A stretch of DNA of 64,000 bases. Origin: Paracamarosporium sp. OC-R06-R3. Taxonomy: Eukaryota > Ascomycota > Dothideomycetes > Pleosporales > Didymosphaeriaceae. Shown one piece after another: positions 1-19,256 of the stretch. The notes under the pieces are model-generated. The model did no database searches. It had not been told where the DNA came from and was given only the letters and a program-made list of their open reading frames with translations. The stretch is taken from NCBI GenBank assembly GCA_019828545.1, contig JACVRA010000153.1, positions 1 through 64,000 of the forward strand, given 5' to 3'. Position numbers and translations under genes: made by a program. How positions within the stretch are numbered: position 1 is the first letter of the stretch; the number at the start of each line of letters is the position of its first letter.

Positions 1-429
1 TTATTAATAAATTACTATAGTTTTTATATTTATACTAAATATTATTGCAACCTAGTGTTGTTAGAAACTAAGTAGTAGAAGATATAAGAGGAGTAGTATT
101 AAATTACCTCTAACCTATAAGCTACTTATTATTATATCCTAGATCTTAAGGACTAATTAGCTGTAGCTAAAGAGAAGAAGTATTATTAGGTATTAAAAGA
201 CATTACTTCTACTAAAGAGTTAGAAGGGTTAAAGTAGGTAATAGATTTAGCTAGTATAACTACTATTATATCCTTACTTTTTAGGCCTTTACTATTTAAA
301 TCTTTATCTAACTTAGGCTAGTTATAGGCTAATCCTTCTTTACTTAATTTTTTTAACTTTTTTTATAATCTTAATGCTATTTTCTTAGCTTTAGGTTTAG
401 GATTATACTTCCTTAAAAGTGTACCTTTG

Positions 430-600
430 TGCATTAGTACTAGAAGTCCTTTAGTAATTCTTTATAGTTTATAAGGTTTTTCTTTAGTTTTTACGTATTA
501 TACTACTTTAGCCATCCTTTTTATAATACTAGATACTTAAGTTAACTATTAATCTTTTATAGGTTCTTAATAGTTTTAATCTCGTACTTATTATTTTCTA
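430..600 (-). pseudogene. Chromodomain remnant at the C-terminus of pol
   Basis: Minus-strand translation near 491-540 reads LKYLVL-stop-KGWLK-stop-YNT-stop. This is the YLVKWKGY...NTWEP chromodomain core in which Trp (TGG) and Gln/Glu codons have become stops. In chromoviruses this domain tethers integration to methylated H3K9 heterochromatin. The reading frame continues with few stops to about position 100, suggesting a C-terminal tail. Confidence 0.7.
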
Positions 601-3600
601 GTTTTAACTAGTTTTTAATTAGAGCATTCTAGGGTATTAATTTTAATAATAATTTATAAAAGGTTAAGTATATTTTAGTTCCTTTTAGTAATTTAAACTT
701 ATTTATAATTAGTTCCTTATTTTCTAGAATTTTAAAGGGTCCTACCTATAGGTAATCTAGTTTCTTACTTTGCTATTTAGTTTTAAGATTTTTTTATAAT
801 AGGAAAACTTTGTCTTTCCTTTTAAAAATTAGTCCCTTAATCCTTTACTTATTTGTATTCTTAAATACTAAGAGGGCCTTACGGGATATCCTATCCTATA
901 GGACTTAGTATAATTCTTTTATTTTTTAAGCCTTTTTTTAGGCTTCTATAGTAGTACTTTCTACGTCTTTAGGGTTCTTATAAGCTACTAGCTTATATCT
1001 ATAGTTAACGTAATGTGGTAAATAGCCTATTATACTTAATTTAGTACTATTATATACTAACTATACTGTTGGCAAGAGTTTAACCTAGTTATCCTACTAC
1101 TTATTTACGTAAAATTATAGGTACTATTTTAATATCTAATTTATACGTTCCGTTTACCTATTTGTTTAAGGATAGAAACTTATTAAGAGCTTTCTTATTA
1201 TCCCTAAAGTACTTATAAACGTATTCTAGTATTTAAATATAAAGAGCTTATCTCTATTTATAATAATTTCGTCTAAGGCGCCGTGCTTTAAGAGAAGTGC
1301 TTTATTAACTTTATAGGCTAGTTTTTCTACTATTATTAATTCTTTTATAGGTATAAACTTGGCTGCTTTTATTAGTTAATCTATAATATTTAATATTATA
1401 TCGTATATCCTATTTAACTCTAGTTATAGTAATACTAGAAGCTTTATTATAAAGTCTATTATTACACTTAACTATAGTTGTTTTAGTAGTAGTAAGGGTT
1501 ATAATAATCTATAGGGCTTATATCTCTTAGACTTATTTTTATAATAAGTTAAATAGTTGTCTAATACCTTTTTAACTACCTCTTTAAGTTTAGGTATAGT
1601 ATATTTATTTATAATCTAATATATTATTTCCTTAATACTAGGGTATCCTTATTCCCTTACCTTATAAAGCTTTTTTATTAAAAAGTCTTTTTATTCCTTT
1701 TAGACTATCTATCTTTACTAATAGTCTTTTCTATTAAATTCTATTTAATAGAAGTCGTATTCCTCCCTTTATTCTATAGAGAGTTAAGTATAGTCTTAAA
1801 AGTTATTTACTTTTAAACTTTAGTATTATATAGTAGCTACTTTTTATACCTCTATTTTTCTTACTTTCTTATCTAGGTTTATCTAATAGTATTATTCTTT
1901 TAGCTAGTTGTATTAAAGTATACTATCTTAAGTTATCTTTAGTATTATATACTATTTTATAGGTCCTTTCTCTATAAGGTCTAGTCTTTAGCTTAGGGTA
2001 TTTACTACTTTATTAGAAGTTCCTAGTTAATAGTAAATCTTAAAGTTAAAGTTTATAAAAAGTTTTACCTATTATACTTATTATTAATTTAATTTCTTAG
2101 TTATAGTAAAACTTATTAGATTTTAGTAGTCTATCTAGACTTTAATTTAATATAGTATATCTATATACTATACTTTCTATTATTTAAAGGCATCTATTAT
2201 TACTAGTAGTTCCTTATTATAAATATTATAGTTTAGTTCTACTCTTAAGAACTTCTATAAATAGTAGAATACTAGTCTTTATTTCCCATCTTTATATAAT
2301 TAGAAAAGTATTACTTTAAGTATATAGTCTAAAGTATCTATTTCTATATATATCCTTCTTTTAAAGTTGTATATTTATAATAATAGATTTATAAGGAATC
2401 TTACTTTTAGTTTCTTAAATATTTTCTAGGCTTTTAGTTTAAAGCCTTTCTATTAATCTTTTTTTATAAGTTCCGTTATTAGTGCTATAATCTTAGAGTA
2501 GTCCTTAATAAATTTATAGTAGAAGTTAGTAAACCTTAGAAAGGATTAAATATCCTTTACTAACTTAAGTTCCTATTATTTCTATACAGCGGCTACCTTC
2601 TTGGGGTTTATAAATACGCCTTTTTTTAAAATTATAAATTCTAGGTACTCTATTTTAGTAACGTAAAATTTATATTTTTCTAAATAGAGAAGTAACCTAT
2701 ACTTTTTTATTTTCTTAAGTACTTTTTTTATATATTCTTAGTACTCCTTTAGAGTTCCTATAGAGTAGATAAGTATATTATTAAAATAGACTATATAGAA
2801 TATATCTAAATATTTATATAGTACTTTATTAATTAACGCCTAGAATATTATAGGTACGTTAATTAATCTAAAGGGTATAATCGTATACTTATATAATTTA
2901 TATTAAGTCCTAAATATAGTTTTCTATTCTTTACCCTTGGCTATTTATATATAGTAATACCTATTATATATATTAAACTTTATAAACTACTTAGCTCCTC
3001 TAAGCCTATCTATTAATTCTATAATAAGTAGTAGGGGGTATTAGTTTTTTACTATAGCATTATTTAATTATTTATAATTTATATAAAGTCGTAGTTTACT
3101 ATTCTTCTTTAGTATCTAAAGGATTAAGAATACGGCTAGACTTTTACTTTTCTATATAAACTATTTACTTAAGTTCTTTTGTAGGTACTCCTATAGCTCC
3201 TTTTTTTAATTTATAGACATTAGCCTTAGCTATTCTAGTTATAGTTTTATACCTTCTTTTAGAGGTATTTTATAATCCTATTTTTAGTATTTTAGTAAGA
3301 CTTTTTCTTCTCTTTCCTTAAAGAGTTCCGTATACTCCTTATATTCTGGCGGAATATTCTTAGGTGTAGGTATTACTTAAAGATTTAATCTTTATATCTA
3401 TATTACTTTAGTATTCTAAGGTTTCCTTTATAGAAGTCTTGCTATCTTAACTCCTAAGATTTCTTAAATGTTTTTACTTATTTTAGGGAATACTCTCTTA
3501 GCTTATTCCTTTTAGGGCTGTCTTACTCTATTAATTACTAGTATAGCTTATCTAGTTATAATTATTTATTTCTTTTAGTCTATTACTAGGTTATATTACT

Positions 3601-4929
3601 TAAGTTAATTATATCTTATAATTACTTCTATAGTTCCTATTTATAGTATAGTAAACTAGTGTCGGCTCTTAAATCTATTAAGATATATTAATAGAGGTAG
3701 GGTTTTTAACTATAGATATTTTTTTTTATACTCTTTTAATAGCGTTTCGTCTACTATCTTTAACCTAACTAGCTAGTCTTTCTTTTAATAAGGTAATCTT
3801 AGCCTTTTAATTATATCTTTAAAGATTAGGTATTCTATTACTCCTAGGTTAATTAATGCCGTTACTTAAAATCCTCTAATTATAATAGTCCTAATTAGCT
3901 ATAAGTTTTTATTTAAGTTTTTTATAATATATTTTGCTATTATCCTGCCTTTACTAGTCTAGCCTTTGGCCTAGTAGCCTTTTAGTTTTTTAACTATATA
4001 CTAGTTAAATATTCTACTCTTCTCTAGAAGTTTATAAAATACTTAGTCTTATAATAGTTTTTAGTTTATTTAAGTTATTTTATTTCTTTTACTCCTTTTA
4101 TACTATGCCTAGTATAATTTTCTATTAGGCATTTCTATCTACGTAAGTCTTAGTATTCTTATTTTAAGGCTTTAGTAATGGCTACTTTTTTTTCTATTAA
4201 GTATTTTAAGTATTCTTCCTACTTATAGTTCCTTTAGTCTAGTGTTATATAAACTAGGTTAGTCTATAGTAGGCACTTCTATAGGTTATATATATATAGT
4301 ATAAAGAGGATATTATCTTTTAATTCTATTAGCTATATTTTTACTATATATTTTTAATTCTAGTATAGTAGACACTTTTATATATAGTACTTAACCTATC
4401 TTAAGTATATATACTACTTAGTCTAATCTTTTAAGTAGTAGACGTAGTATAGTTAAATTTTATATTTATTAGTTTATAGCCTTCTATAGTTTTTATTACT
4501 TAGTGTCTTAGTAATTAACTTTTTTTCTATTTTATAAATATTATATATATCTAAGGTATAGTTCTACTATTTAATCTTATTATAGTTAGATTTTATTTAT
4601 ATTTATTAAACTAGTATAGATACGGTTTCTTAGCGTCCTTTAGTTTACTTATATATTTTCTAAGGCTTAAGCCTTATAATTTTAATCTTCTTTTAGTATT
4701 TTTTTATTATATAATTCTTCTATTTATATATCTAGTAGACTTTCTATAGGATTTATATAGTAATCTTGTCTTTTATAGTTTCCGTCTACGTTTCTTATTA
4801 AAGATCTTTAGCTATTATAGCTTTCTAGCCTATAAGTTCCTAGGGCTCTTTAGACTTAGGTTTATAGGGTAGTAGTAGTATTCTTAGCCTTAAGTTTACT
4901 ATCCTTACTTTTATAATTCTTATATATTT

Positions 4930-5780
4930 CTTATTTTTAGCCTAATTTTTTAAATAATCTACTTTAAAGTATCCTTTCTCTTTATACGTTAGACATGCCC
5001 TATTATAGTAGCATTTCTATCTTTTTTTTTATATATTAAAGTCTTATTTATCCTTTTTCTAGAATTTATTTTGTTTTTAGTTTTAAGCTTTATCTACTAT
5101 AATAATGTCTCTATCTTTGTCTTAGTATTTTTATCTTTTTAGAGTATTAACTTTAATTATTATAGTTTCTTAAAAGCCCTTCCGTTTTTCCTAGTATTAT
5201 TTATATAGCTAATTGTTAATCTTAATTAATACCTTAATTAAGTCTTTTAGATCTTTAGGTTTAGTATAGTATATAAGTTCATCCTTAACTACTTCTTTTA
5301 GTCTATTATAGTAGGCTAATTAGAGTAGGTCGTTATCTTATTTAATCTTATTCTATAGTTATTTAAATACTATAGTATATTTTCTTACTAAGCTAGTTTA
5401 CTTTAGGTATTAGATTTATTATTCTACCTATTTTCTTTTATTAACTTCTTTAAATATTATTTTAATCTTTTCTTTATAGGTCTTCTAGTCCTTAAAGGTT
5501 TTCTATGTTTTAAAAGAGTAGTTCTTAAGTATACTATCTTTCTTTAGATAGTCGTCTACTAGGGGTTGCATCTACTTAATAGCGTTGCTAGTTATATATA
5601 TACCTACTACTAGGATCTTATTAGCGTCTATACTAATCTTATAGTTGTGTGTATATAGTTCTACGTTTGTTAAAAATAGTTTAAACTTAGACGGCGTTCT
5701 ATTAAACAGCTTAGAGATCTTAAAAGTCCCTTTTTAAGTCCTAGGTCCTAGGTCCTAGGCCTGTACTTGCGTTATTACCT
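4930..5780 (-). pseudogene. gag remnant of the gypsy element (capsid-like segment and zinc knuckle)
   Basis: Minus-strand translation gives a capsid-like stretch near 5480-5720 (e.g. PSKFKLFLTNVELYTHNYK) followed near 4940-5016 by a retroviral-type CX2CX4HX4C knuckle. The knuckle has lost ligands through G-to-A and C-to-T changes. Several in-frame stops are present. It precedes the RT and integrase remnants in the same orientation. Confidence 0.7.
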
Positions 5781-6049
5781 ACGTTAGCTATTCTTTTAGC
5801 TGCTGGATTACATTAGCCTATTAGGCTATTACTATAGCTATATTTATTGTTGGCCCGGAAGTAGAGCTTCCCGTAGCGGCCTAAGATACTTATAAACTTA
5901 ACAGTGTTGCTATTATTTCCAACGTTAGGTAGTTAAAGTGTTAATAGGGTATACTATATACCTAGTTTAATCTATACTAAGGCAGTAGGGTTTACTTATA
6001 GCGGGGCCTATAGGGCTTTAGTAATAGAAAGTAGTTTAGCAACAAAGGT

Positions 6050-6497
6050 TGTTAAGCTCTAATTAAGTATTAAGGATACTTAATAATATATTAAGAGAAA
6101 ACTAATTATTCTTATATAAAAGAATTACTTAATTAAAGAGTTAAAATACAATTTAAGTTAACTACGAAGAATAGGAAAAGTATAGAGATCCTCCTAGACT
6201 ATATACTAGTCGTTCTATTCTTTATCCTTATCCTGTTTTGTCCGTAATCCCTCTTGGCCTTCCCTTTTAAAGGGAGCACTATCTTGCTCTGTTGTGTATC
6301 CTGGTTTTTAGTGGATTATAGTCACGTAGTGCGCTCTATCGCTTAGCCCTGTTCTTAGCGGATTAGGGTTACGTGATTCTGGCTAACTTATCCTGCCCCG
6401 TAGGGTTCCTTTGTCGTCTGGATCGGCGTTGGGGCCTCCGGCCTCTAGTACCTCATAAGTGCTATCCTATAGCCCTTGGTTCCTTGTGCTTGTAACA
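6050..6497 (-). repeat. 5' LTR of the gypsy element
   Basis: A 448-bp segment is bounded on the plus strand by TGTTAAGC at 6050 and GCTTGTAACA ending at 6497, i.e. the short inverted termini TGTTA...TAACA typical of LTRs. It lies directly upstream, in minus orientation, of the gag remnant. Its middle (about 6200-6490) is much richer in GC than everything around it. A target-site duplication cannot be tested because the partner LTR is not in the window. No convincing tRNA primer-binding site was found just inside it. Confidence 0.6.
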
Positions 6498-6503
6498 GTA
6501 TTC

Positions 6504-6528
6504 TATTAGGGCCTAATAGGCCCTAATA
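6504..6528. repeat. Perfect 25-bp hairpin next to the LTR
   Basis: Arms TATTAGGGCCTA and TAGGCCCTAATA are exact reverse complements of 12 bp around a single A. It starts 6 bp outside the LTR terminus. Function unknown. It could be part of an older insertion. Confidence 0.7.
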
Positions 6529-7229
6529 TTTTATATAGAGTAAAAATAGATACTCTTTACCTATCTATATAATACTTAATTTAAAAGTTATAATATTAAA
6601 GTTTAATATAAGGCTATATACTCTATTACCTTATACTATATATATAGGCTAGTAAATAGGTAGGGTATATTTAAAGGTTAAGTAGAGGTTAAGTTTAAAG
6701 TAGTCTAAGTATAAATAGAATTAAGGTTAAATTAATTAAACCTTAAGTAGAGGTAGAATAGAAATAGTTAAAATATTAAATAAAAATAAAATAAAAATAG
6801 TTAAAGTATTAAATAAAGGTAAGATAAGTATACCTACTAAGTTATTTATAAATAATTATTTAATTATAAAGTTTTATTATAGTATTATTATTTAGAATAT
6901 ATTTAAAATATATATTTTTATTTAATAAGACTTATTTTAACTCTATTATATAAGACTCTACCTTTACCTAATATATTAATAACCCCTACCTAACCCCTAC
7001 CTAAAAAAAGTATTAAAAATCTAGGTAGGGGTTAGGTAGGGGTTAAGTAGTCTTACGTAAGACTCCTACCCTAACTTAACTCCTACCTATTTGCCAGCCT
7101 ATATACGTGATAGTACGTGGCAGTTGTAAATACTAAGTAATACCCTAAAATTTAGGTCTTAATTAACGCTTATAAAGTAGAGGATTTAGAGGTATATAAA
7201 TAGTTTACTATCTAGTATAGTTAATACCT
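6529..7229. other. AT-rich non-coding stretch between transposon remnants
   Basis: Apart from the inverted repeat described separately, this is AT-rich sequence with short internal repeats (for example two copies of ATAGTTAAA[AG]TATTAAATAAA near 6760-6815). No open frame or recognisable protein remnant was seen. Confidence 0.6.
6980..7064. repeat. Large inverted repeat plus adjacent 16-bp palindrome
   Basis: Two exact 23-bp arms (6980-7002 and 7023-7045) enclose a 20-bp AT-rich loop. Each arm is itself a direct repeat of a TAACCCCTACC-type unit. Immediately beyond lies the perfect palindrome AGTCTTACGTAAGACT (7049-7064), then more CTACCCTAACTTAACTCCTACC-like sequence. A MITE end or decayed telomere-like repeat is possible. 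No coding potential. Confidence 0.75.
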
Positions 7230-7778: not shown

Positions 7779-9550
7779 ATGTCGCTCTACTACGAGGCCG
7801 CGGCCGTCCTTGCAAAACCCGGAAATGCTGGTGGTTCCCTCAAATCAAGGATATACAAGAACAAGGACTTGAAGACTTCGCCCGCGCAGCTATTCGCCCT
7901 GATCAGCGAAACGTCGAAATGGTCCCTGGTGCTGAAGGATGTCATTGAGAGGTGCGGGCTATTGGGGGAGGAGAAAAAGGTTAGTATTGCGCATGCGCTG
8001 TCAACGCGAGGGTTGCTAATTGCGTATAGCTGACTCCAATCCTCGCGCTCCTCCTTACGCATGACCTCCTCCTGTCAAAGAGTGGCGTGGCCGCGCATGC
8101 GAACCATGTCCTGAAGCTGGCCATCTCGAGACACAAAGCCCGGTTAAGCGCCGAGCTCACGAAAGCACGAATACGCCGCGGTTATGCCACATTAGACGCC
8201 CTGCGACAGGCAGTCGACCTCGGAGAGCTGGATGAAAGCAAAGAATTGTCAAAGAAGGCGCACAAGCACCCGCGATGGGTGCGCATAAACACGATACAGA
8301 CGAGCATGGCGGATCAATTGGCCACCACCTTTTCCGAGTACGAGAAGGTCAACAGCATCCGAGAGGTACTGCTAGCATCCGCGGCGACGAAGATATACTT
8401 TGAGGACACTCACATTCCCAATCTGCTTGCTCTCCCACCCAGAGCCGATCTGAGCAAGACATTGGCGTACGCAAATGGAGCCATCATATTTCAAGACAAG
8501 GCCTCATGCTTTCCTGCCTATCTTCTGGATATGGGACCGGATGACGGGGATGCGGTAGATGGATGCGCTGCGCCGGGAAACAAGACAACACACTTAGCTG
8601 CGATAGTGTCCGAGAGAAAGATGCATGCCAAGCGACAAAAGGTGTTTGCATATGAAAGAGACAAGTTCAGAGCTACAACGCTACAGAAAATGGTCAAGTG
8701 CGCTTCAGCGGGCTCGATGGTAACAATTAAGGCAGGGACAGACTTCTTGTCAGCGAACCCAGATTCTGAAGAATTTGCAAATGTCGGCGCGATCCTGCTG
8801 GACCCAAGCTGTTCAGGGAGCGGTATTGTCGGAAGAGACGATGCAATCAAGATGCATTTGCCGAATCCAGCTGTGGGTAGTAATCTTGTCGCTACAGGCA
8901 AGAAGGACAAGAAGCGGAGGAGAGATCACAGTATGTCTCAAGATGATGACGGCACGACCTTGACCATGGGCCTGGATGACACGCTACCGGAAGAAACCCC
9001 TATTGAAGGCCAGCTTGCTGAGAGGCTCACTGCGCTGTCGACCTTTCAACTACACATCCTCACGCACGCAATGCGCTTCCCCAAGGCGCGCAAGATCACT
9101 TATTCGACTTGCTCTATTCACTTTGAAGAAAACGAGGGAGTTGTTTTCCGAGCCCTGGCATCGGCGATTGCTAAAGAACGAGGCTGGAAGATTGTACCTA
9201 GGGAACAGCAAGTGCAAGGCTTGAGGGTCTGGGAGAAAAGAGGTATTTGGGAAAATGGGAAGGTGGCTGTCGAGATCGACTTGAATCACGAAAAGAAAGA
9301 AGAGATATGCAATGCCTGTATACGATGTGCGAAGGGTACATTAGAAGGTACGATGGGTTTCTTTGTTGCTGCTTTCATTCGAGACTCTGCAGCTTTACTT
9401 GGAGGCGCTACACTAGGCGATAGCGTCGCTCAGGATGTTGGAGACGAATGGAACGGATTTAGCGATGAGGACGGGATTAAGACTGCGACTCATCTGCAGC
9501 ATGTCGCGCCCTGTTCCTCTAAACGTGCAAGGAAAAAGAGGAAGCGATGA
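7779..9550 (+). CDS. RCM1: 25S rRNA m5C methyltransferase, Rcm1/NSUN5 family
   Basis: Two exons, 7779-7979 and 8030-9550, separated by a 50-bp intron (GTTAGT...TATAG, branch GCTAAT), give a 573-residue protein. It begins MSLYYEAAAVL, as Rcm1/NSUN5 proteins do; an earlier in-frame start would be non-ATG. The N-terminal region binds RNA. The Rossmann methyltransferase core shows the SAM-binding motif DGCAAPGNKTTHLAA, the motif IV LDPSCSGSG with one catalytic Cys, and the motif VI YSTCSIHFEENE with the second Cys. The C-terminus is basic (KRARKKRKR), suiting nucleolar location. The family methylates a conserved cytosine of large-subunit rRNA. The gene starts about 220 bp from the transposon relic, so its promoter abuts heterochromatin. 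Confidence in the family is high. Confidence 0.93.
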
Positions 9551-9995: not shown

Positions 9996-12482
9996 ATGAC
10001 GACCACGACCGCTCCGACGTTTGATCTCTCTCGTCCAAGACTGCGACAAATCTCGTACTGGATCCGTGATGAGCTCGATCCGCTCGTTGCTCGGGAGGGC
10101 CCCGAGCTTCTTCGAGCTGACGATGTGTTGACCTTACACGATTTTTTCCAGTGCCTTAAGACATCCTCCAACCTGACTGCTCTCGATCTACGCGCCACCG
10201 GTATTCACAGGGCTGTCATGGAGGTTTCGGGAATGGCCACTAGATGGCCCGGGCGGCTGGCGGACGACTGTGATAAACTCATCAACTTGTGGACAGCCGA
10301 ATTTGGTCGGTTGGAAGATCTGCACCCTTTTCTTTACGGTAGAGGAGGGCGTCTAGAGGGAGTTGCCTCGGTCGAAGAGACCTCAAAGCATGTTAGTCAA
10401 CTGTGTGTGCCACATATTGAGAGTAAGCCACTGATGGTCGCAAGGCGTTGCTCGAACGCTGGCAGAACACTTGTCCTGATAGGATCTCACCGAAAAGGGC
10501 ACGTCGACGTGGCAGTCTAGGGTTTCATCCTGGCTCGTATGGCTCCAGAACCTTCTATCGTTCCTCAAAGCTCATTAAATGATTCTAGGTGGTGGATCAA
10601 TCTTTTATTCGCCTGCCACGCCGGCATAATCGATGTTGATACAATCGATGGCGGGATATGCCACGACAAGTACGGTGCATACGCAATTGTATTGATCGAA
10701 GGAAGTGAGCTTGATGCGCCAACGGCTTCCACTCTGACGTACCGCTGCGGCAAGGACGATCGAGGTAAATTCCGTTTGACAGCCGCTACTCCAAGAAGCA
10801 GGGAGCCACTTCGCGTTCTTCGAAGTCACAGTGTCAACAGCATGTGGGGTCCTAAGGCTGGGGTAAGATATGAGGGACTGTCAGTGCGCCGTGTCCTCAA
10901 GTCACGTCTTTTGACCAATGTACAGGTACCGTGTAACCGGATGGGCTGTTCATCAACCCAAGGCAAGTTCCTCTAGTGCTGTCCAGAAGGCTCGCCTCAG
11001 TGATATGTATTACGACGTTCATCTTGAGAGGTGTAGGTGGCCATACATGACCCCTGCAATCACTGCAAGCTCAATTTTACAGGCGACCCTGTTCCAATCG
11101 ATGAAGTAGCCAAATTTCCAATTGCATGTGAGCTCGATGATTACTCTGAATACAAACGGATGCGCAAACTCCATCGAGACCTACGCAACAAGGGGCCCGC
11201 TGCTTCACTTGACGCGAACAAGTTACTGTCTATACCCGCGAAAGTTGCACCAGCAATCCCCCCACCAGGCCTCGCACTATCGGGAAGAGAGTCTTTATTC
11301 AACGTGTCTCCGGCCGCCTCTCGTGCCACGATCTTCACAGTGGCACCACGAAAGGCAATGCCAGATACGTCGAAGGTTGTACCTGGTGGTGCGCAGAGTA
11401 CGGCTGGTGAGGAAGATACAGTTGTGGTGCCCAGGAGCCCAATCGATTTACCGATTTCAGCCCCTATACCACCATTGGTAGCAGCCAAGACATCACGCAG
11501 CGATCCACCACGAGTTCATTCGCCACTTGGCTCAAAATGCACAGGTTCAAACGCAAGCATGTCGAAAAGTCACCAATCTATCAAAGAAGTCGCGCCCTGG
11601 ATTGACTACGATCACCCTCACCTTGCTCTTCCTACGACCAGCAATCTCGCATCTACCAGCAATCTAAATACCGATCAGCCAAACAACCGAACGCCAAGGA
11701 GTCGAAAGGAAACGTGCACAAAGAGTGGCGATAGATACACTGACCGCCTACGCCCTTCGTCCTCGGGCCAAAACTTGCATTCAGAAAAAAGTTCGAGCGA
11801 GAAGGAAAGTAGGAAGTCAACCCTTGTGCAAAGTCGCAACCAGATAGCTAAGCTTTTCGATGGTACTGAAGACGAGCTCAATATGGTCGTTGATTACTTC
11901 TCCTTGAAACGACCGAGAGCCGCATCCGTTAGTCCGAAATGCACGTCGATCCCACCCAGGTGCGATGTACGTACAGACTTTACTGAAGATACACCGCAGC
12001 TGGCGGCGCCAATACCGCTCAAGCATATGAAACTCAGCCCGTTGTCATTGGGAAGGCGAGACGCAGTAGCTTTCCCTTGCGGTTATGTCGTGTCACCGCT
12101 CGCTTCACTAAGCCAGGACGTCAACTTTCTGGCCCATAGCCAATCACTGGCAGATACCTCCACATGGGACACCACAGCGAAGCCTACTCATCCTTTAATT
12201 ACTCCTCTAGAACACATAATTGGGAAGCCGGCTGAAGCTGTTATGGGGGATATGCCTACGCCCTCCCCTAGCATTACTCAGACAGATCTAACTCATCGTA
12301 GCAGCTCGCAGGATATTACGATCAGGCGAGTACAATCTGCCAGTTGGCCCGGACAACTAATGCAAGAATGGGAGAAATTTGGAGTCAAGGTTGCATTTCG
12401 TGACCCATTCGGATCCGAAATATATAGCCATGAAGGGGTAAGGACTGGAAGCTTGAATGTGTCTCCGAAGACTGTCATGTGA
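9996..12482 (+). CDS. SRA-YDG domain protein (putative modified-DNA reader)
   Basis: Exons 9996-10391, 10445-10536, 10589-10879, 10926-11032 and 11083-12482 (introns 46-53 bp, all GT-AG) join in frame to 761 residues. Residues about 160-275 form a SAD/SRA (YDG) domain: DKYGAYAIVL, LTYRCGKDDRGKFRLTAAT, REPLRVLRSHS and, across the third intron, GVRYEGLYRVTGWAV, containing the YDG-type Y-E-G. SRA domains, as in UHRF1 and plant SUVH proteins, flip out and bind 5-methyl- or hydroxymethylcytosine. The N-terminal 130 residues form a helical region of unknown function. The roughly 460-residue tail is Ser/Pro-rich and probably disordered. No RING, SET or PHD domain is visible. Nuclear DNA binding is inferred from the domain alone. 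Confidence 0.85.
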
Positions 12483-14138: not shown

Positions 14139-15200
14139 TCACGGCCATTGGGTTCGATCCAGGGGCGTCGCATGCTTGACATACCCAATCCTGTTGTCTA
14201 AGTGGGTCTGCCTACCATCTGGTACAACAGGACCAAACTTTGGATGTACCAGCAGACCCGGCGTGAACGGATCAACCTTGTTCTTCTTCATACCCTCCAA
14301 CAGCCGATCCCAGTTGACGCACTCATGTGCGATGGTCCGGTTACCGCCAGGAAGAATACTTTCGTTAAACCAATACATGGTCAGAGGCGTCTCGTCAGCT
14401 TTGCACATTACTTGCTCCACAAGCATTTGCAGGCAATGCACTGTATAACGAATTAGTTGGGGTTAGGAAGGTTGGTAGGAAGCAAGCCAAGGTGACTTAC
14501 AGCTATGCTCATGTTGTAACTCCGTTTCTTCCTCCGTCATGTCCGGCCAGTAGTAGTCAGGGAAGTACGACTGGTATAGACGTTTCTGTACAGTCCTGTT
14601 AGTTCAATATCCGTTCATCGAGATAAACACACATACCAAGCAGTGTAATTGGTGAATGAAGGCGTAGTTGGCCAGATAATTCCCGTTAGGCAGACGAATA
14701 CCCTCTTTGGTACGCCCGAGCTTTTCCATGTATTCCTTCGGTATCTCCGCATAGAAGTATTGCATGAGGTTGCTCCAATTCTGATCGAGTTCATCGCTTG
14801 GCTGCCCGACAAGGTTGTAGTCTTTCGATGTCTCAGTCATCTTAAAAAAGGTAGGCTCGTACTCGACGTACTCCCTTATCGGAGCTGTAGTGTTATCAGT
14901 AGTTGTCGTAGTAGTCACAAACAGCGATACTGGAAACTTACTGTCGATTACATTGGCGCCGTGAGTGCGCTGCTTCTTCCACCACATTGAAGTCGCTGTG
15001 GTAAGAAATATTGAATACGCAAGGAAAGCAACAACACTACCGATAGCGATAAGTGCTTGCCTCTTGCGTGATGTCCTGCGAGGGCGAATCGTGGGATGAC
15101 CATTACGAAGAAGCTCGTCTGATTCTCGGGCAGACTCAGAGGATTGGTCGTCTTGAATCGGCGAGTACGCCGGTGTAGCGTCTTTCTCTGCAAATACCAT
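14139..15200 (-). CDS. UstYa-family (DUF3328) oxidase, single-pass membrane protein
   Basis: Minus-strand exons 15200-14942, 14884-14637, 14585-14501 and 14440-14139, with introns of 57, 51 and 60 bp, join to 297 residues starting MVFAEKDATPAYSP. A transmembrane helix follows a basic patch at about residues 45-68 (ALIAIGSVVAFLAYSIFL), giving a type II topology. The two HXXHC motifs that define the family are present: HQLHC (followed by the 51-bp intron) and HSLHC (created across the third intron), then MCKAD and HECVNW. In ustiloxin, phomopsin, asperipin and victorin pathways, UstYa proteins oxidatively cross-link side chains of kexin-released peptides in the secretory pathway. Here the gene diverges from a repeat-core precursor 975 bp away, which strongly suggests the substrate. 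The ATG was chosen because it directly precedes the acidic/basic cytosolic tail. Confidence 0.9.
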
Positions 15201-16175
15201 TGTAGGAGGCTCACAAGAGGGAAAAGGACTATGCGAGATGAAGTGACTTCGACTATCGTCGGGAGAACATAAGAAGTGCAAGTACAACGAGTGGCCTGAT
15301 CACGGTGGGGTAAACGGAAAGACCGGTAACGAAGAAACAAGAAACACAAGAGTAACCAAGAATATGCTTGATAATTCTGCTAGCTTCTTGACTATCGGTA
15401 TGTCTGGCCTACAATGAGCCGAAACCGATAACAACCGATCAACCTTCCTAAACAATGTTTCAGGCAACCCGAGATCTGCAATTTGACATCAAGGTGTTGT
15501 CTACGCAATGTAGGCAGAGCGAGGAACGGCGGTGTCGGCAAGTTGCTCGTTGAAGCCGTCTACGATTTGTATATTTGACCTTCCTGTCCTAGCTTAGAGG
15601 ATGATGACCAATGTGGAGCCATTGCTCCATACGGTACAAGGGGTGTATGATGAACGGAATGCTAGCGTAGAAACCCTTAGTCTCGTAAAAGACTAGGGAG
15701 CGACTAGTGCCACTCTTCGCACTAAGAATTCGTTCATGATTACCCCTTTGTAATAAGACTAGACTAGGGTCGTCTTAGTTAGAGCTTATCAGTTTGAGCG
15801 CATTAACCTGTTACACCTCGGTCCCGTGTGAGTCTTCATCTTGAAGCCAAACATCGACAAATCAATGCTCGGAGGAGTGTCATTCACCTGGCGAGGGAGG
15901 ATCATCGTACGTTGGACTATGCTGACTGCGGCAGGTGAAGGAGGCAGCCGTATGCATGCACTTCATCGCTTTGTCCATAAACACACCGTACCTTCGTCGC
16001 CCCGCAGCGGGGTTATGGACTATCAATAATCTTCGTCTGTTGCTTCGGTTATCAAGGGCAACCGGTAGTATTTCTAGGTTCACGCGGACACTCTAACGTT
16101 GAATCTCGTGCTCAATCTTCTTTCAAAATCTTTTGTTTCTCTCCATCCTAAGAAGAACCGTTTCAAATTCTCAAG
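15201..16175. promoter_or_regulatory. Divergent intergenic region between UstYa gene and precursor gene
   Basis: 975 bp separate the two start codons, which face away from each other, so this region presumably holds both promoters. No coding signal. Specific transcription-factor sites were not identified with confidence. Confidence 0.5.
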
Positions 16176-16652
16176 ATGCAGTTCAAACAATTCGTCGTCA
16201 TTGCACCTTTGTTTGCACTTGCTTGCGCTTCTCCCATTGCTGAATCAAGTAAGTCTGCGACGTGAGTGGTACAACACAGCAAGCTAACAAAACCAGAGCC
16301 TGAGAACGCAGATGTTGCTGCTCGGGCCCAGCTAGAGAAGGACTCTGATGATATCTGGCTGTGGAAGAAGCGAGAAGCCGCTCAACTCGAGAAGGACTCC
16401 GATGATGTCTGGCTGTGGAAGCGGGCTGATGATTCCGACGATGTTTGGCTATGGAAGCGGGGACAGGAAGCCAGCATTAAACGCGCTAAGCTTGCAAAAG
16501 ACTCGGATGACATTTGGCTCTGGAAGAAGCGTGAAGCTGCAAAGCTTGAGAAAGACTCCGACGACATTTGGCTCTGGAAGAAGCGTGAAGCCAATGAGAA
16601 AAACAAGAAGAGCAAGCTCGTGAAAGATGCTGATGACATCTGGCTGTGGTAG
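16176..16652 (+). CDS. Kexin-processed repeat peptide precursor (candidate RiPP precursor)
   Basis: Exons 16176-16248 and 16297-16652 (48-bp intron, GTAAGT...ACCAG, branch GCTAAC) encode 142 residues. Residues 1-19 are a signal peptide (MQFKQFVVIAPLFALACAS). The rest is six copies of an eight-residue core, D-S-D-D-[IV]-W-L-W (last copy D-A-D-D-I-W-L-W). Copies begin at residues 40, 58, 70, 93, 111 and 135. The first five are each followed by KKR or KR, typical Kex2 sites; the sixth ends the protein. Spacers are short and Lys/Glu/Ala-rich (REAAQLEK, REAAKLEK). This is the layout of fungal kexin-processed repeat proteins and of ustiloxin-type RiPP precursors. With the divergent UstYa gene next door it is probably modified on Trp. 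There are no Cys, unlike Sordariomycete alpha pheromones. The product is unknown and not matched to any described compound by me. Confidence 0.9.
16341..16649 (+). repeat. Six tandem core-peptide repeats
   Basis: Core units lie at 16341-16364, 16395-16418, 16431-16454, 16500-16523, 16554-16577 and 16626-16649. Amino-acid identity among cores is nearly complete while synonymous positions differ (GATATC/GATGTC/GACATT). This suggests purifying selection on the core rather than very recent duplication. Confidence 0.9.
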
Positions 16653-17486
16653 AGCACACGGGTTGTTCCAAGTAAATAGTGACTTGTTCTGCCTTAATCT
16701 TGTGGCTTTGTTTGACGGTCTTGATCAATCGACTAGACTCTAGAATTGCGTATAGCTATGATGTTATGTGAGGAGATGAGTTGGGTCCTGTTATGTAATG
16801 ACACTCGTTTAAGCAACGTCAGCCTGGCGGCACATGGAATACATTGGTCGGTAGAATCACGTCGAGATGGATCATGGCTGAAAAGCTGATGATGCACCGC
16901 TCGCATGCACATTTATCGCTACATGGACACTTTCTGCACGTATCGAAGGTGGTCCTGGCTGTTACTACTCGTCGTGGTAAGCTTCGTGATGCACGAAGGT
17001 GCTGTACGTACGAATGTTGTCTGGGCAGTGCAGAGGGTTCTCAAAATACCTGAGTTGGTCTTGCCTCTGTTTTCTGTCTGCATGACGTATATTCGAAGCT
17101 CGTTCTACAATTGTGGTCTCGGGAAACAATCGAGTGCAAGCAGCAGCACGGCCAAGGTGTGCCTGAAGTCGGAGGTGGAAACAAGCAGCGAACAAGCCGC
17201 TAAGCCCTACTTGCGACCCACGCTATCCGACATGGTGCACGTGACTTGTGTCGATGCAGTCCACTTTGGACAGGGCAGTCAGCCATGCCTCCAACGCTGT
17301 GCCCGTCCGGCACAAGAAACGGGCTCGTCTTGTAAAGCCTGCAGCACGGCGTCTCACCATGGCCCTCCTCGGCGCGTAGTGACTGACTAGACGTCCCGCC
17401 GACCCCACGCCGCCAGCTCGCCGCTCTCCTCGCCGCTCCCGCCGCCCACACGCCCGCCTCGACCTGCTCCGCTCTGCTCTGCTCCC
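16653..17486. other. Intergenic, precursor 3' end to ALO1
   Basis: No coding or RNA gene recognised. The last 100 bp before ALO1 is GC- and pyrimidine-rich (CGCCGCT/CCGCC runs), as in many fungal 5' leaders. Confidence 0.5.
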
Positions 17487-19256
17487 ATGGCGCAGTCGCA
17501 GCTGGCATCGCTCGGCATGCCGCCCAACTTCGTTGTCGAGCTCGACCGCCTCGACGCCGACGTGCCCCTGCGCGCGTCCCAGGCCCACGTCCACCACACA
17601 TGGGCCCGCACCTTCCACTCGCGCCCGGAGCTCTACCTGCGGCCCCAGAGCGTCGCCGAGATCCAGAAGATTGTCACCCTCGCCCGCCGCATGCGACGCC
17701 GCATCGTCACGGTTGGCTCCGGCCATTCGCCCTCGGACCTCACCTGCACCTCGGCCTGGATGGTCAACCTCGACGACTTTGGGCGCGTGCTCGCCGTGGA
17801 CAAGGACCGCCGCACCATGACGGTCCAGGCCGGCATCCGCATGCATGCCCTCAACCTCGCCGCAAAGGAGCACGGCCTCACCATGCCCTCGCTGGGCTCC
17901 ATCGACGTCCAGTCGCTGGCAGGCGCCATCGGAACCGCCACCCACGGCAGCTCCATGGCCCATGGCCTACTGTCCGACAACGTCCGCAGCCTGCGCATCG
18001 TGCTCGGCAACGGCCAGTCTGTGAAATGCTCGCCCTCGCAGTCGCCAGACCTGTTCCGCGCCGCCCTCGTCTCCCTTGGCGCATTAGGCATCGTTGTCGA
18101 AATAGAGTATCAAATGTCCGACCATAGCGACATTGAGTGGGCCCAGACCATCCTACCCATTGACCAGGTGCTCTCCCTCTGGGACAAGGACTTGTGGACA
18201 TCGCACGAGTTTGTGCGTGTTTGGTGGCTTCCCTACATGAAACGCGCCATTGTATGGAAGGCGAACAAGACGGACAAACCTCACAGGAAGCCCGCATATA
18301 ACTGGTATGGCGGCAGCGTCGGCTTTCACACATACCACATTCTCCTCTGGATCTCGCAATACGTTCCCCGCTTCCTGCCTTGGGTCGAATGGTTCGTCTT
18401 CGGCATGCAGTACGGCTTCAAGGACGGTACGACCATCAGCGCCGTCGAAGAGCAACGCACCGGCTTACTCATGAATTGTCTATATTCACAGTTTGTCAAC
18501 GAGTGGAGTATTCCGCTCTCAAAAGGCCCCGAAGCCCTGACGCGCCTTACAAAGTGGATCCACGGCGACGAGCACGGCTCCGCCATCCCCTTCAGCCCGA
18601 AAGGCCTCTACGTCCACTCGCCCATAGAAGTCCGCATTGCCAACACGGTCGACCGACAACCTCGCCCTTTCCTCGACACCTCCCGTCCTAACGAGCCGTC
18701 ACTGTACCTCAACGCCACACTCTACCGCCCTTATAATCAGGACCCACCGTGCCGCGAGCGCTACTACCAAGCCTTCGAGCATCTCATGAAGGATTACAAC
18801 GGCTACCCGCATTGGGCAAAGAACTTCCAGTCTGTAGACCACACCTACCTCTCAAAGGTGTACGGCGACGACCTAGATGACTATCTCCGCGTGCGCAACG
18901 AAGTCGATCCCGACGGCATGTTTCTTGGGGCATGGCACCGCCGCACCATTTTGCCAGCTAAGACCGAACTCCCGGCTTTTCCGCTCGAAGAGAAAGAAGT
19001 TGTGCGACGGCAGCGGCATACGGGCGGCGTGGACTGGGTTGGTGAGCAGGCAAGGTGGTACGACGGTGGCTTAGACGTGTTTGAAAAGAATGGCAGTGAA
19101 AGCGGAGAAAGCTTCGATTTGATGGCTGGCGCGGAAGCGGAGGCTAGCGTACTATTAGAGAGTTTGAGAGATGAGGGTGAGCTAGAGGTGGAGAAGAGAC
19201 GGCGGGAAAACACCGAGGAGTTTATGACTGGGACAAACGTTTTCAACAAGATGTAG
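17487..19256 (+). CDS. ALO1: D-arabinono-1,4-lactone oxidase
   Basis: A single 589-codon exon. The N-terminal FAD-binding PCMH-type domain contains TVGSGHSPSDL (the His of GSGHS is the usual site of covalent flavin in this family) and GAIGTATHGSS. The C-terminal ALO domain ends in the conserved PHWAKNF and DDYLRVRNEVDPDGMF blocks. The enzyme oxidises D-arabinono-1,4-lactone to D-erythroascorbic acid, an antioxidant, at the mitochondrial membrane. It is longer than yeast Alo1 by an acidic, charged tail of about 60 residues after HRRTILPAK. The gene is strongly GC-rich at third positions in its first half. Its position beside the RiPP locus looks incidental. Confidence 0.95.
   Translation: MAQSQLASLGMPPNFVVELDRLDADVPLRASQAHVHHTWARTFHSRPELYLRPQSVAEIQKIVTLARRMRRRIVTVGSGHSPSDLTCTSAWMVNLDDFGRVLAVDKDRRTMTVQAGIRMHALNLAAKEHGLTMPSLGSIDVQSLAGAIGTATHGSSMAHGLLSDNVRSLRIVLGNGQSVKCSPSQSPDLFRAALVSLGALGIVVEIEYQMSDHSDIEWAQTILPIDQVLSLWDKDLWTSHEFVRVWWLPYMKRAIVWKANKTDKPHRKPAYNWYGGSVGFHTYHILLWISQYVPRFLPWVEWFVFGMQYGFKDGTTISAVEEQRTGLLMNCLYSQFVNEWSIPLSKGPEALTRLTKWIHGDEHGSAIPFSPKGLYVHSPIEVRIANTVDRQPRPFLDTSRPNEPSLYLNATLYRPYNQDPPCRERYYQAFEHLMKDYNGYPHWAKNFQSVDHTYLSKVYGDDLDDYLRVRNEVDPDGMFLGAWHRRTILPAKTELPAFPLEEKEVVRRQRHTGGVDWVGEQARWYDGGLDVFEKNGSESGESFDLMAGAEAEASVLLESLRDEGELEVEKRRRENTEEFMTGTNVFNKM

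Follow-up and report, generated by a model that had tools for sequence, protein, structure and literature searches.

Does a gene for a UstYa-family (DUF3328) oxidase lying beside a short gene for Trp-Leu-Trp repeats constitute a ribosomal peptide pathway and, if it does, what would the enzyme do with a repeat whose sole Tyr/Phe/Trp-type residue is Trp, when the described UstYa-made RiPPs use Tyr or Phe links? The pair is found in the window, i.e. the whole analysed stretch of 64,000 nucleotides, which represents bases 1-64000 of one contig (C42) in an assembly of 43.1 Mb and 337 contigs. As a sequence-only reading of this DNA had proposed, the two genes form a divergent pair at 14139..16652, with the UstYa stop codon at 14139 and the precursor stop codon at 16652. 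We lean towards reading the pair as a compact RiPP pathway of the dikaritin (ustiloxin) type, which has a Trp core and ends in Trp-Leu-Trp-COOH.

The divergent gene pair and its surroundings

The repeat precursor gene occupies 16176..16652 on the plus strand and encodes 142 aa in two exons, 16176-16248 and 16297-16652, a structure that is based on splice modelling, which gives one 48-nt intron, on the relatives and on a search of the assembly. An alternative acceptor leads to a 63-nt intron, which is also open, and a precursor of 137 aa. The hydrophobic N-terminus that had been read as a signal peptide is present, and the likely signal peptide, MQFKQFVVIAPLFALACAS, covers about residues 1-19 (16176..16232, plus strand); the call is from hydropathy alone, with the cleavage site placed without tool prediction, and the relatives have similar N-termini. 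It is followed by six copies of D-[SA]-D-D-[IV]-W-L-W, a composition already seen in the sequence-only reading and confirmed here by the splice model and the repeat scan. On the plus strand, the first copy, DSDDIWLW (16341..16364), is followed by KKR, the second and third, both DSDDVWLW (16395..16418 and 16431..16454), by KR, and the fourth and fifth, both DSDDIWLW (16500..16523 and 16554..16577), again by KKR. The earlier description of the copies as kexin-flanked holds for these five, but the sixth, DADDIWLW (16626..16649, plus strand), abuts the stop codon and has no trailing basic residues, an ending that is the same in 11 relatives. The core had also been described as having four acids, but D-S-D-D has three, and the eight-residue core itself is doubtful; the acids may be a recognition sequence. 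Repeated cores with Kex2 sites in a secreted precursor, as expected of a dikaritin, are present, the signal peptide being judged by hydropathy.

In 20,000 shuffles of the precursor protein, D.DD[IV]WLW did not occur once, and a chance origin of the repeats is ruled out by the shuffles together with the assembly search. Compared in 15 pairs, the DNAs of the six repeats have 48 synonymous base differences versus 21 in amino-acid-changing codons, which is consistent with selection acting on the peptide. There is no second genomic copy of the precursor, as this gene was the only match when the 43-Mb assembly was searched with the protein. At the DNA level, the pattern TGGYTNTGGAARMR occurs 62 times genome-wide (reversed control, 41), and because 57 of the occurrences are outside the precursor, which has 5, the pattern alone is not diagnostic.

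The UstYa/DUF3328 oxidase gene (14139..15200, minus strand; 297 aa) has the exons 15200-14942, 14884-14637, 14585-14501 and 14440-14139, separated by introns of 57, 51 and 60 nt (14941-14885, 14636-14586 and 14500-14441). Splice enumeration with donors GT[AG]NG, acceptors [CT]AG and two or three introns gave 22 open models, and the model chosen drops a stretch absent from relatives while retaining both HxxHC motifs and a KRL[YH]Q segment, which is found in the same or similar form in 14 of 16 aligned relatives and is absent in P0020 and P0027. The earlier assignment of this gene to UstYa, with both motifs, is borne out by the match to Pfam UstYa (PF11807) at 147.2 bits, where the cut-off is 25, and by the family arrangement HxxHC(x)nHxxHC, consisting of HQLHC (residues 164-168; 14640..14654, minus strand) and HSLHC (residues 196-200; 14433..14507, minus strand, split by the third intron, 14500-14441). 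Both were located by alignment and are predicted copper-binding motifs, with the role of the first assigned by analogy with CctR (PMC12435403). CctR is a UstYa relative which in vitro has one membrane helix as its anchor, dimerises and holds two coppers per monomer, and mutants in HxxHC(x)nHxxHC have no activity (PMC12435403); by homology, the UstYa protein here would bind copper in the same way. Its hydropathy peak at 49-67 fits the single N-terminal membrane helix of the family, with a presumed orientation. In the predicted model of P0010, the relative from Kalmusia (mean pLDDT 75), there is a long N-terminal helix (46-78), HQLHC (H169, H172, C173) is in helix 166-181, and HSLHC, by manual count from the alignment, is in helix 192-215; the modelled layout would match the one reported for CctR, a dicopper enzyme (PMC12435403). 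By sequence, the UstYa protein has no relative among solved structures at E up to 1, and when the predicted UstYa model was compared with the PDB by Foldseek, 169 structures matched with E at most 10 but none with E at most 0.001.

The start codons of the two genes are separated by a divergent intergenic region of 975 bp (15201..16175), which places a UstYa-family gene in the linkage expected of a dikaritin precursor. The neighbours of the pair with Pfam matches, an NSUN5-type RNA methyltransferase (8030-9547), an ALO-type sugar lactone oxidase (17391-19253), GH1, Spt20, PhoD and more further away, look like housekeeping genes. The sequence-only reading had found no tyrosinase, methyltransferase or peptidase nearby. 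This stands for tyrosinase, as all 39 tyrosinase matches of the genome are on contigs other than the window's, in contrast to the linked tyrosinase of the ustiloxin/phomopsin subgroup, and for peptidases, with no peptidase family among the 20 long open frames scanned (longer exons only); it falls for the methyltransferase, though that gene is of the NSUN5 RNA type. The scanned long frames also contain no transporter or reductase, the ALO-type oxidase apart, and the single genome match to the kexin-type P-domain is on another contig. Because of the housekeeping-like neighbours, the lack of a tyrosinase on the contig and the location of the P-domain match elsewhere, the pair looks like a two-gene island, with unlinked helper genes possible. 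The nearest long frame beyond the UstYa gene is a 481-aa open frame without a Pfam match (11037-12482). At the contig end, about 7 kb from the pair, window positions 1-7000 are AT-rich (GC 0.249) and bear signs of repeat-induced point mutation, with TpA/ApT at 1.75 and (CpA+TpG)/(ApC+GpT) at 0.18.

WLW precursors and UstYa genes in other fungi

Searching for relatives of the precursor had been suggested as a check on the sequence-only reading, and it yielded 11 related precursors, all with DxDx[IV]WLW repeats. Nine were found with E at most 0.1 when about 5.8 billion proteins were searched, and P0069 and P0070 were added by a second search, which used an alignment of ten precursors and scored the 7995 candidates sharing most words. 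Ten of the 11 are from named Ascomycota, mostly Xylariales, plus Thyridium. In the 12 precursors, window included, there are 48 repeats, and DxDx[IV]WLW is found in 48 of 48, positions -5 and -3 always being Asp and position -1 either Ile or Val, a figure that is partly circular because the repeats were recognised by WLW and the relatives found via shared words. The positions in between vary, with Asp, Ala, Glu or Asn at -2 and Ser, Asn, Ala or Gly at -4, and D.D.[IV] without WLW does not occur in the 12 precursors. The WLW precursors are thus a conserved family, which is new here.

All 36 internal copies run directly into Lys, and each of the 12 precursors stops exactly after WLW, a pattern suggesting that the mature peptide ends in Trp. 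Since the terminal copy needs no C-terminal trimming, WLW-COOH is most likely the mature end of all copies, after kexin cleavage and Kex1-type trimming. Beyond residue 20, all 12 precursors lack Tyr and Cys (upstream extension of P0002 removed), so that the YxI core of the ustiloxin/phomopsin subgroup is lacking throughout, and Phe occurs after residue 20 in two of the 12 only, outside the WLW repeats. Two precursors look as if each feeds two products, judging from their sequences: in P0009 the WLW repeats are interleaved with a second core, GGPSVIWPA, which occurs twice, and in P0006 with TMFWAG, which occurs once. The WLW precursor P0070 (Xylaria sp. CBS 124048) bears the precomputed Pfam accession PF28562.1, which may be a new family of WLW-type precursors.

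A protein database search gave 59 relatives of the UstYa protein, and for 6 of the 11 precursors the listed contig size is identical to that of a close UstYa relative, equal listed contig size serving as a proxy for the same contig. The co-located pairs are P0002/P0016, P0003/P0015, P0004/P0023, P0009/P0012, P0069/P0018 and P0070/P0020, and the contig sizes common to both partners are 593282, 265514, 115179, 142785, 894332 and 858724 bases. The locus tags differ by only one or two in four pairs (474021/474023, 645331/645333, 445704/445705 and 690495/690496) and are distant in the other two (378939/401752 and 697121/783360). All six co-located precursors are from Xylariomycetidae. For P0001, P0005, P0006, P0007 and P0008 no UstYa partner is visible among the representatives, one per 90% cluster, and because only one is listed per cluster, the partners of these five may be hidden. 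Conserved pairing in related species, whose absence the sequence-only reading had named as counting against it, is therefore seen again in 6 of 11 precursors by the equal-contig-size proxy.

The nearest UstYa relatives of the window protein are from Karstenula (93% over 196 residues) and Kalmusia (87%). A tree built from 47 UstYa proteins puts all seven that are linked to WLW precursors, window included, inside one group of 25 (support 100/97). Within this group the WLW-linked label is scattered, with five changes, at least four of them forced by starred branches, and 17 of 500 shuffles are as low. For 18 of the 25 UstYa proteins in this group a WLW precursor is not visible, which may be due to missing annotation of short precursor genes or to other substrates. 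The UstYa proteins of the window, Kalmusia and Karstenula nest among Sordariomycetes, apart from Periconia and Pleomassaria. The AU test with the window, Kalmusia, Karstenula, Periconia and Pleomassaria as one clade gave p 0.038, and because this five-member group was picked after the first tree had been seen, the result is a hint only; for horizontal transfer of the UstYa gene, the tree is only suggestive. Judged by this one gene, the host of the window is probably akin to Karstenula and Kalmusia, in which case the WLW family spans two classes of Ascomycota.

Candidate reactions at the Trp-Leu-Trp end

From the repeat structure, the conserved motif and the repeated co-location, which are observed, we infer the reaction, the order of its steps and the final product as follows. 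The precursor would enter the ER through its signal peptide. UstYa would be tethered to the membrane by a single N-terminal helix, its catalytic part facing the ER/Golgi lumen, as its sequence and CctR suggest; it would bind two coppers via its two HxxHC motifs and oxidise Trp in the repeat. The most likely outcome is a bond between a Trp of [IV]-W-L-W and a neighbouring side chain, the candidate links being from Trp1 to Trp3 or to an aliphatic neighbour, and the conserved DxDx before Trp is probably the recognition sequence. Kexin would then cut at the dibasic sites, a Kex1-type carboxypeptidase would strip the trailing Lys/Arg to leave a C-terminal Trp, and the N-side would be trimmed by unlinked peptidases. 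When the YxI core is laid over DD-[IV]-W-L-W, such that the leading Trp stands where Tyr does and the final Trp where Ile does, the acids fall to recognition and the product is probably, by this analogy, [IV]WLW or WLW, linked through Trp.

More tentatively, it can be proposed that UstYa joins both Trp residues of W-L-W (i to i+2), and that this is a conserved pathway common to Xylariales and a pleosporalean lineage, perhaps through horizontal transfer. In bacteria, darobactin has a Trp-x-Trp ring, with the same WxW spacing, made by radical SAM enzymes. If true, joining of Trp to Trp would be the fungal counterpart of these bacterial rings and of plant Trp cross-links. In plants, the BURP cyclases of the lyciumin type form a copper-dependent link from the Trp indole N to carbon on a ribosomal peptide (PMC12186524), but they are of a different protein family from UstYa, and the likeness is one of analogy only.

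The known fungal systems share different parts of this arrangement. In ustiloxin and phomopsin dikaritins, as in the WLW pair, there is a signal peptide, repeats with Kex2 sites and nearby DUF3328 genes, acids precede the core (EDYXI; PMC6339444), and the Tyr-Ile cross-link of the YxIx cores has the i to i+2 spacing of W-L-W (PMC7329392); however, the WLW repeats have Trp for Tyr, a single linked UstYa gene is present versus two for ustiloxin and five for phomopsin, and the contig is without a tyrosinase match. Asperipin-2a likewise has a single DUF3328 gene and a repeat precursor (PMC7329392), and the dicopper site of the family is used for its link of Tyr-O to Phe-C-beta (PMC12186524), but its links are from internal Tyr side chains (PMC9233826), and a transporter and a reductase belong to its pathway (PMC12048977), neither of which matched in the frames scanned here, the ALO-type oxidase apart. 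In victorin, a cross-link runs from Phe, the aromatic residue at the C-terminus of the core, to an internal Leu, which indicates that such a residue, in which WLW also ends, can be the linked one; unlike WLW, victorin has Phe, is chlorinated and extensively modified, and has cluster-encoded peptidases (PMC9233826).

That the pair makes a cyclic peptide through Trp, as was originally suggested, is favoured by the repeated co-location and by Trp being the sole Tyr/Phe/Trp-type residue of the WLW repeats, but the ring itself is a matter of inference. UstYa proteins also hydroxylate, as does CctR, halogenate, and serve non-RiPP pathways (PMC12048977; PMC12435403), and because of these other activities cyclisation has to be regarded as likely rather than established. 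The enzyme could thus alter the WLW peptide without closing a ring, through hydroxylation, dehydrogenation or other oxidation of Trp or Leu, although this seems rather unlikely to us, given that the single DUF3328 protein of asperipin-2a is held to form side-chain links (PMC7329392; PMC12186524) and that the W-L-W spacing is constant, which suggests a geometric need.

It is improbable, in our estimate, that the precursor yields a linear secreted signalling peptide, as a pheromone-like repeat protein would, while the neighbouring UstYa acts on something else. Several repeat proteins do give linear, minimally modified peptides (PMC9769878), a WXW motif is part of the yeast alpha-factor profile (PMC7329392), and KKREA follows 3 of the 5 internal copies in the window precursor, where STE13 is known to remove XA dipeptides in alpha-pheromone maturation (PMC9769878). 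Against this are the repeated co-location with one UstYa group, the lack of a match to any pheromone family for the window protein (E up to 1) or the 5 of 11 relatives scanned (E up to 10), and the finding that mating-factor genes, with three exceptions, have no DUF3328 neighbours (PMC7329392). The genome is rich in UstYa, with 75 exon-level matches and repeat precursors often near them, and two unrelated genes could in principle have become adjacent by chance. We consider this very improbable, in view of the co-location in 6 of 11 relatives by the contig-size proxy and of the concentration of repeat precursors at UstYa genes. Twenty further UstYa regions, each about 10 kb long and taken from the top of the 75 matches and not at random, were put through a simple scan, which found a repeat precursor in 8 (7 of 19 when a region with a masked stretch is omitted). 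The same scan found no such precursor either in the 59.5 kb left of the window when 13-17.5 kb is set aside or in 95 shuffled regions.

For the favoured dikaritin-type pathway, the WLW pair, with one oxidase and one short precursor, offers a direct test of indole cross-linking by UstYa enzymes, and DxDx[IV]WLW before Lys or stop can be used as a core signature for mining.

UstYa-linked repeats in print and in the genome

Loci combining a UstYa gene and a repeat precursor were already known, and the WLW family was not met in the literature listings. Of 7878 repeat proteins, 22% adjoin a DUF3328 gene, and W is not commoner in those that are linked (20.5%) than in the others (24.5%) (PMC7329392). 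Trp repeats beside DUF3328 genes were therefore already counted in 2020, and these Kex2-processed W repeat proteins are of the same kind as WLW; one type, P-3, has W and P without Y and is from other genera, unlike WLW (PMC7329392). The Trp core was called unusual in the sequence-only reading, and it is right that Trp replaces Tyr/Phe, but the novelty was over-stated, such repeats being in print (PMC7329392). WLW is absent from the main text of PMC7329392, and neither IWLW/VWLW nor Trp-Leu-Trp was found among the matches listed for the open-access literature, with supplements and subscription papers outside that scope. Among the matches listed there for UstYa with Trp, no title names a Trp-cross-linked UstYa product.

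UstYa-precursor pairs are common in this genome, and because the repeats of all eight region precursors but L031 contain Tyr, a repeat without Tyr is the exception. The further UstYa-linked repeat precursors are those of L019, L021, L022, L024, L028, L030 and L031, with repeats such as PQWYDLTYID (L019), QYHGKNVVK (L022), TEFAPWYRATNILPASD (L028), EAAPAYVWASSSK (L030) and AFPTWI (L031), and this genome seems to encode many peptides of this kind.
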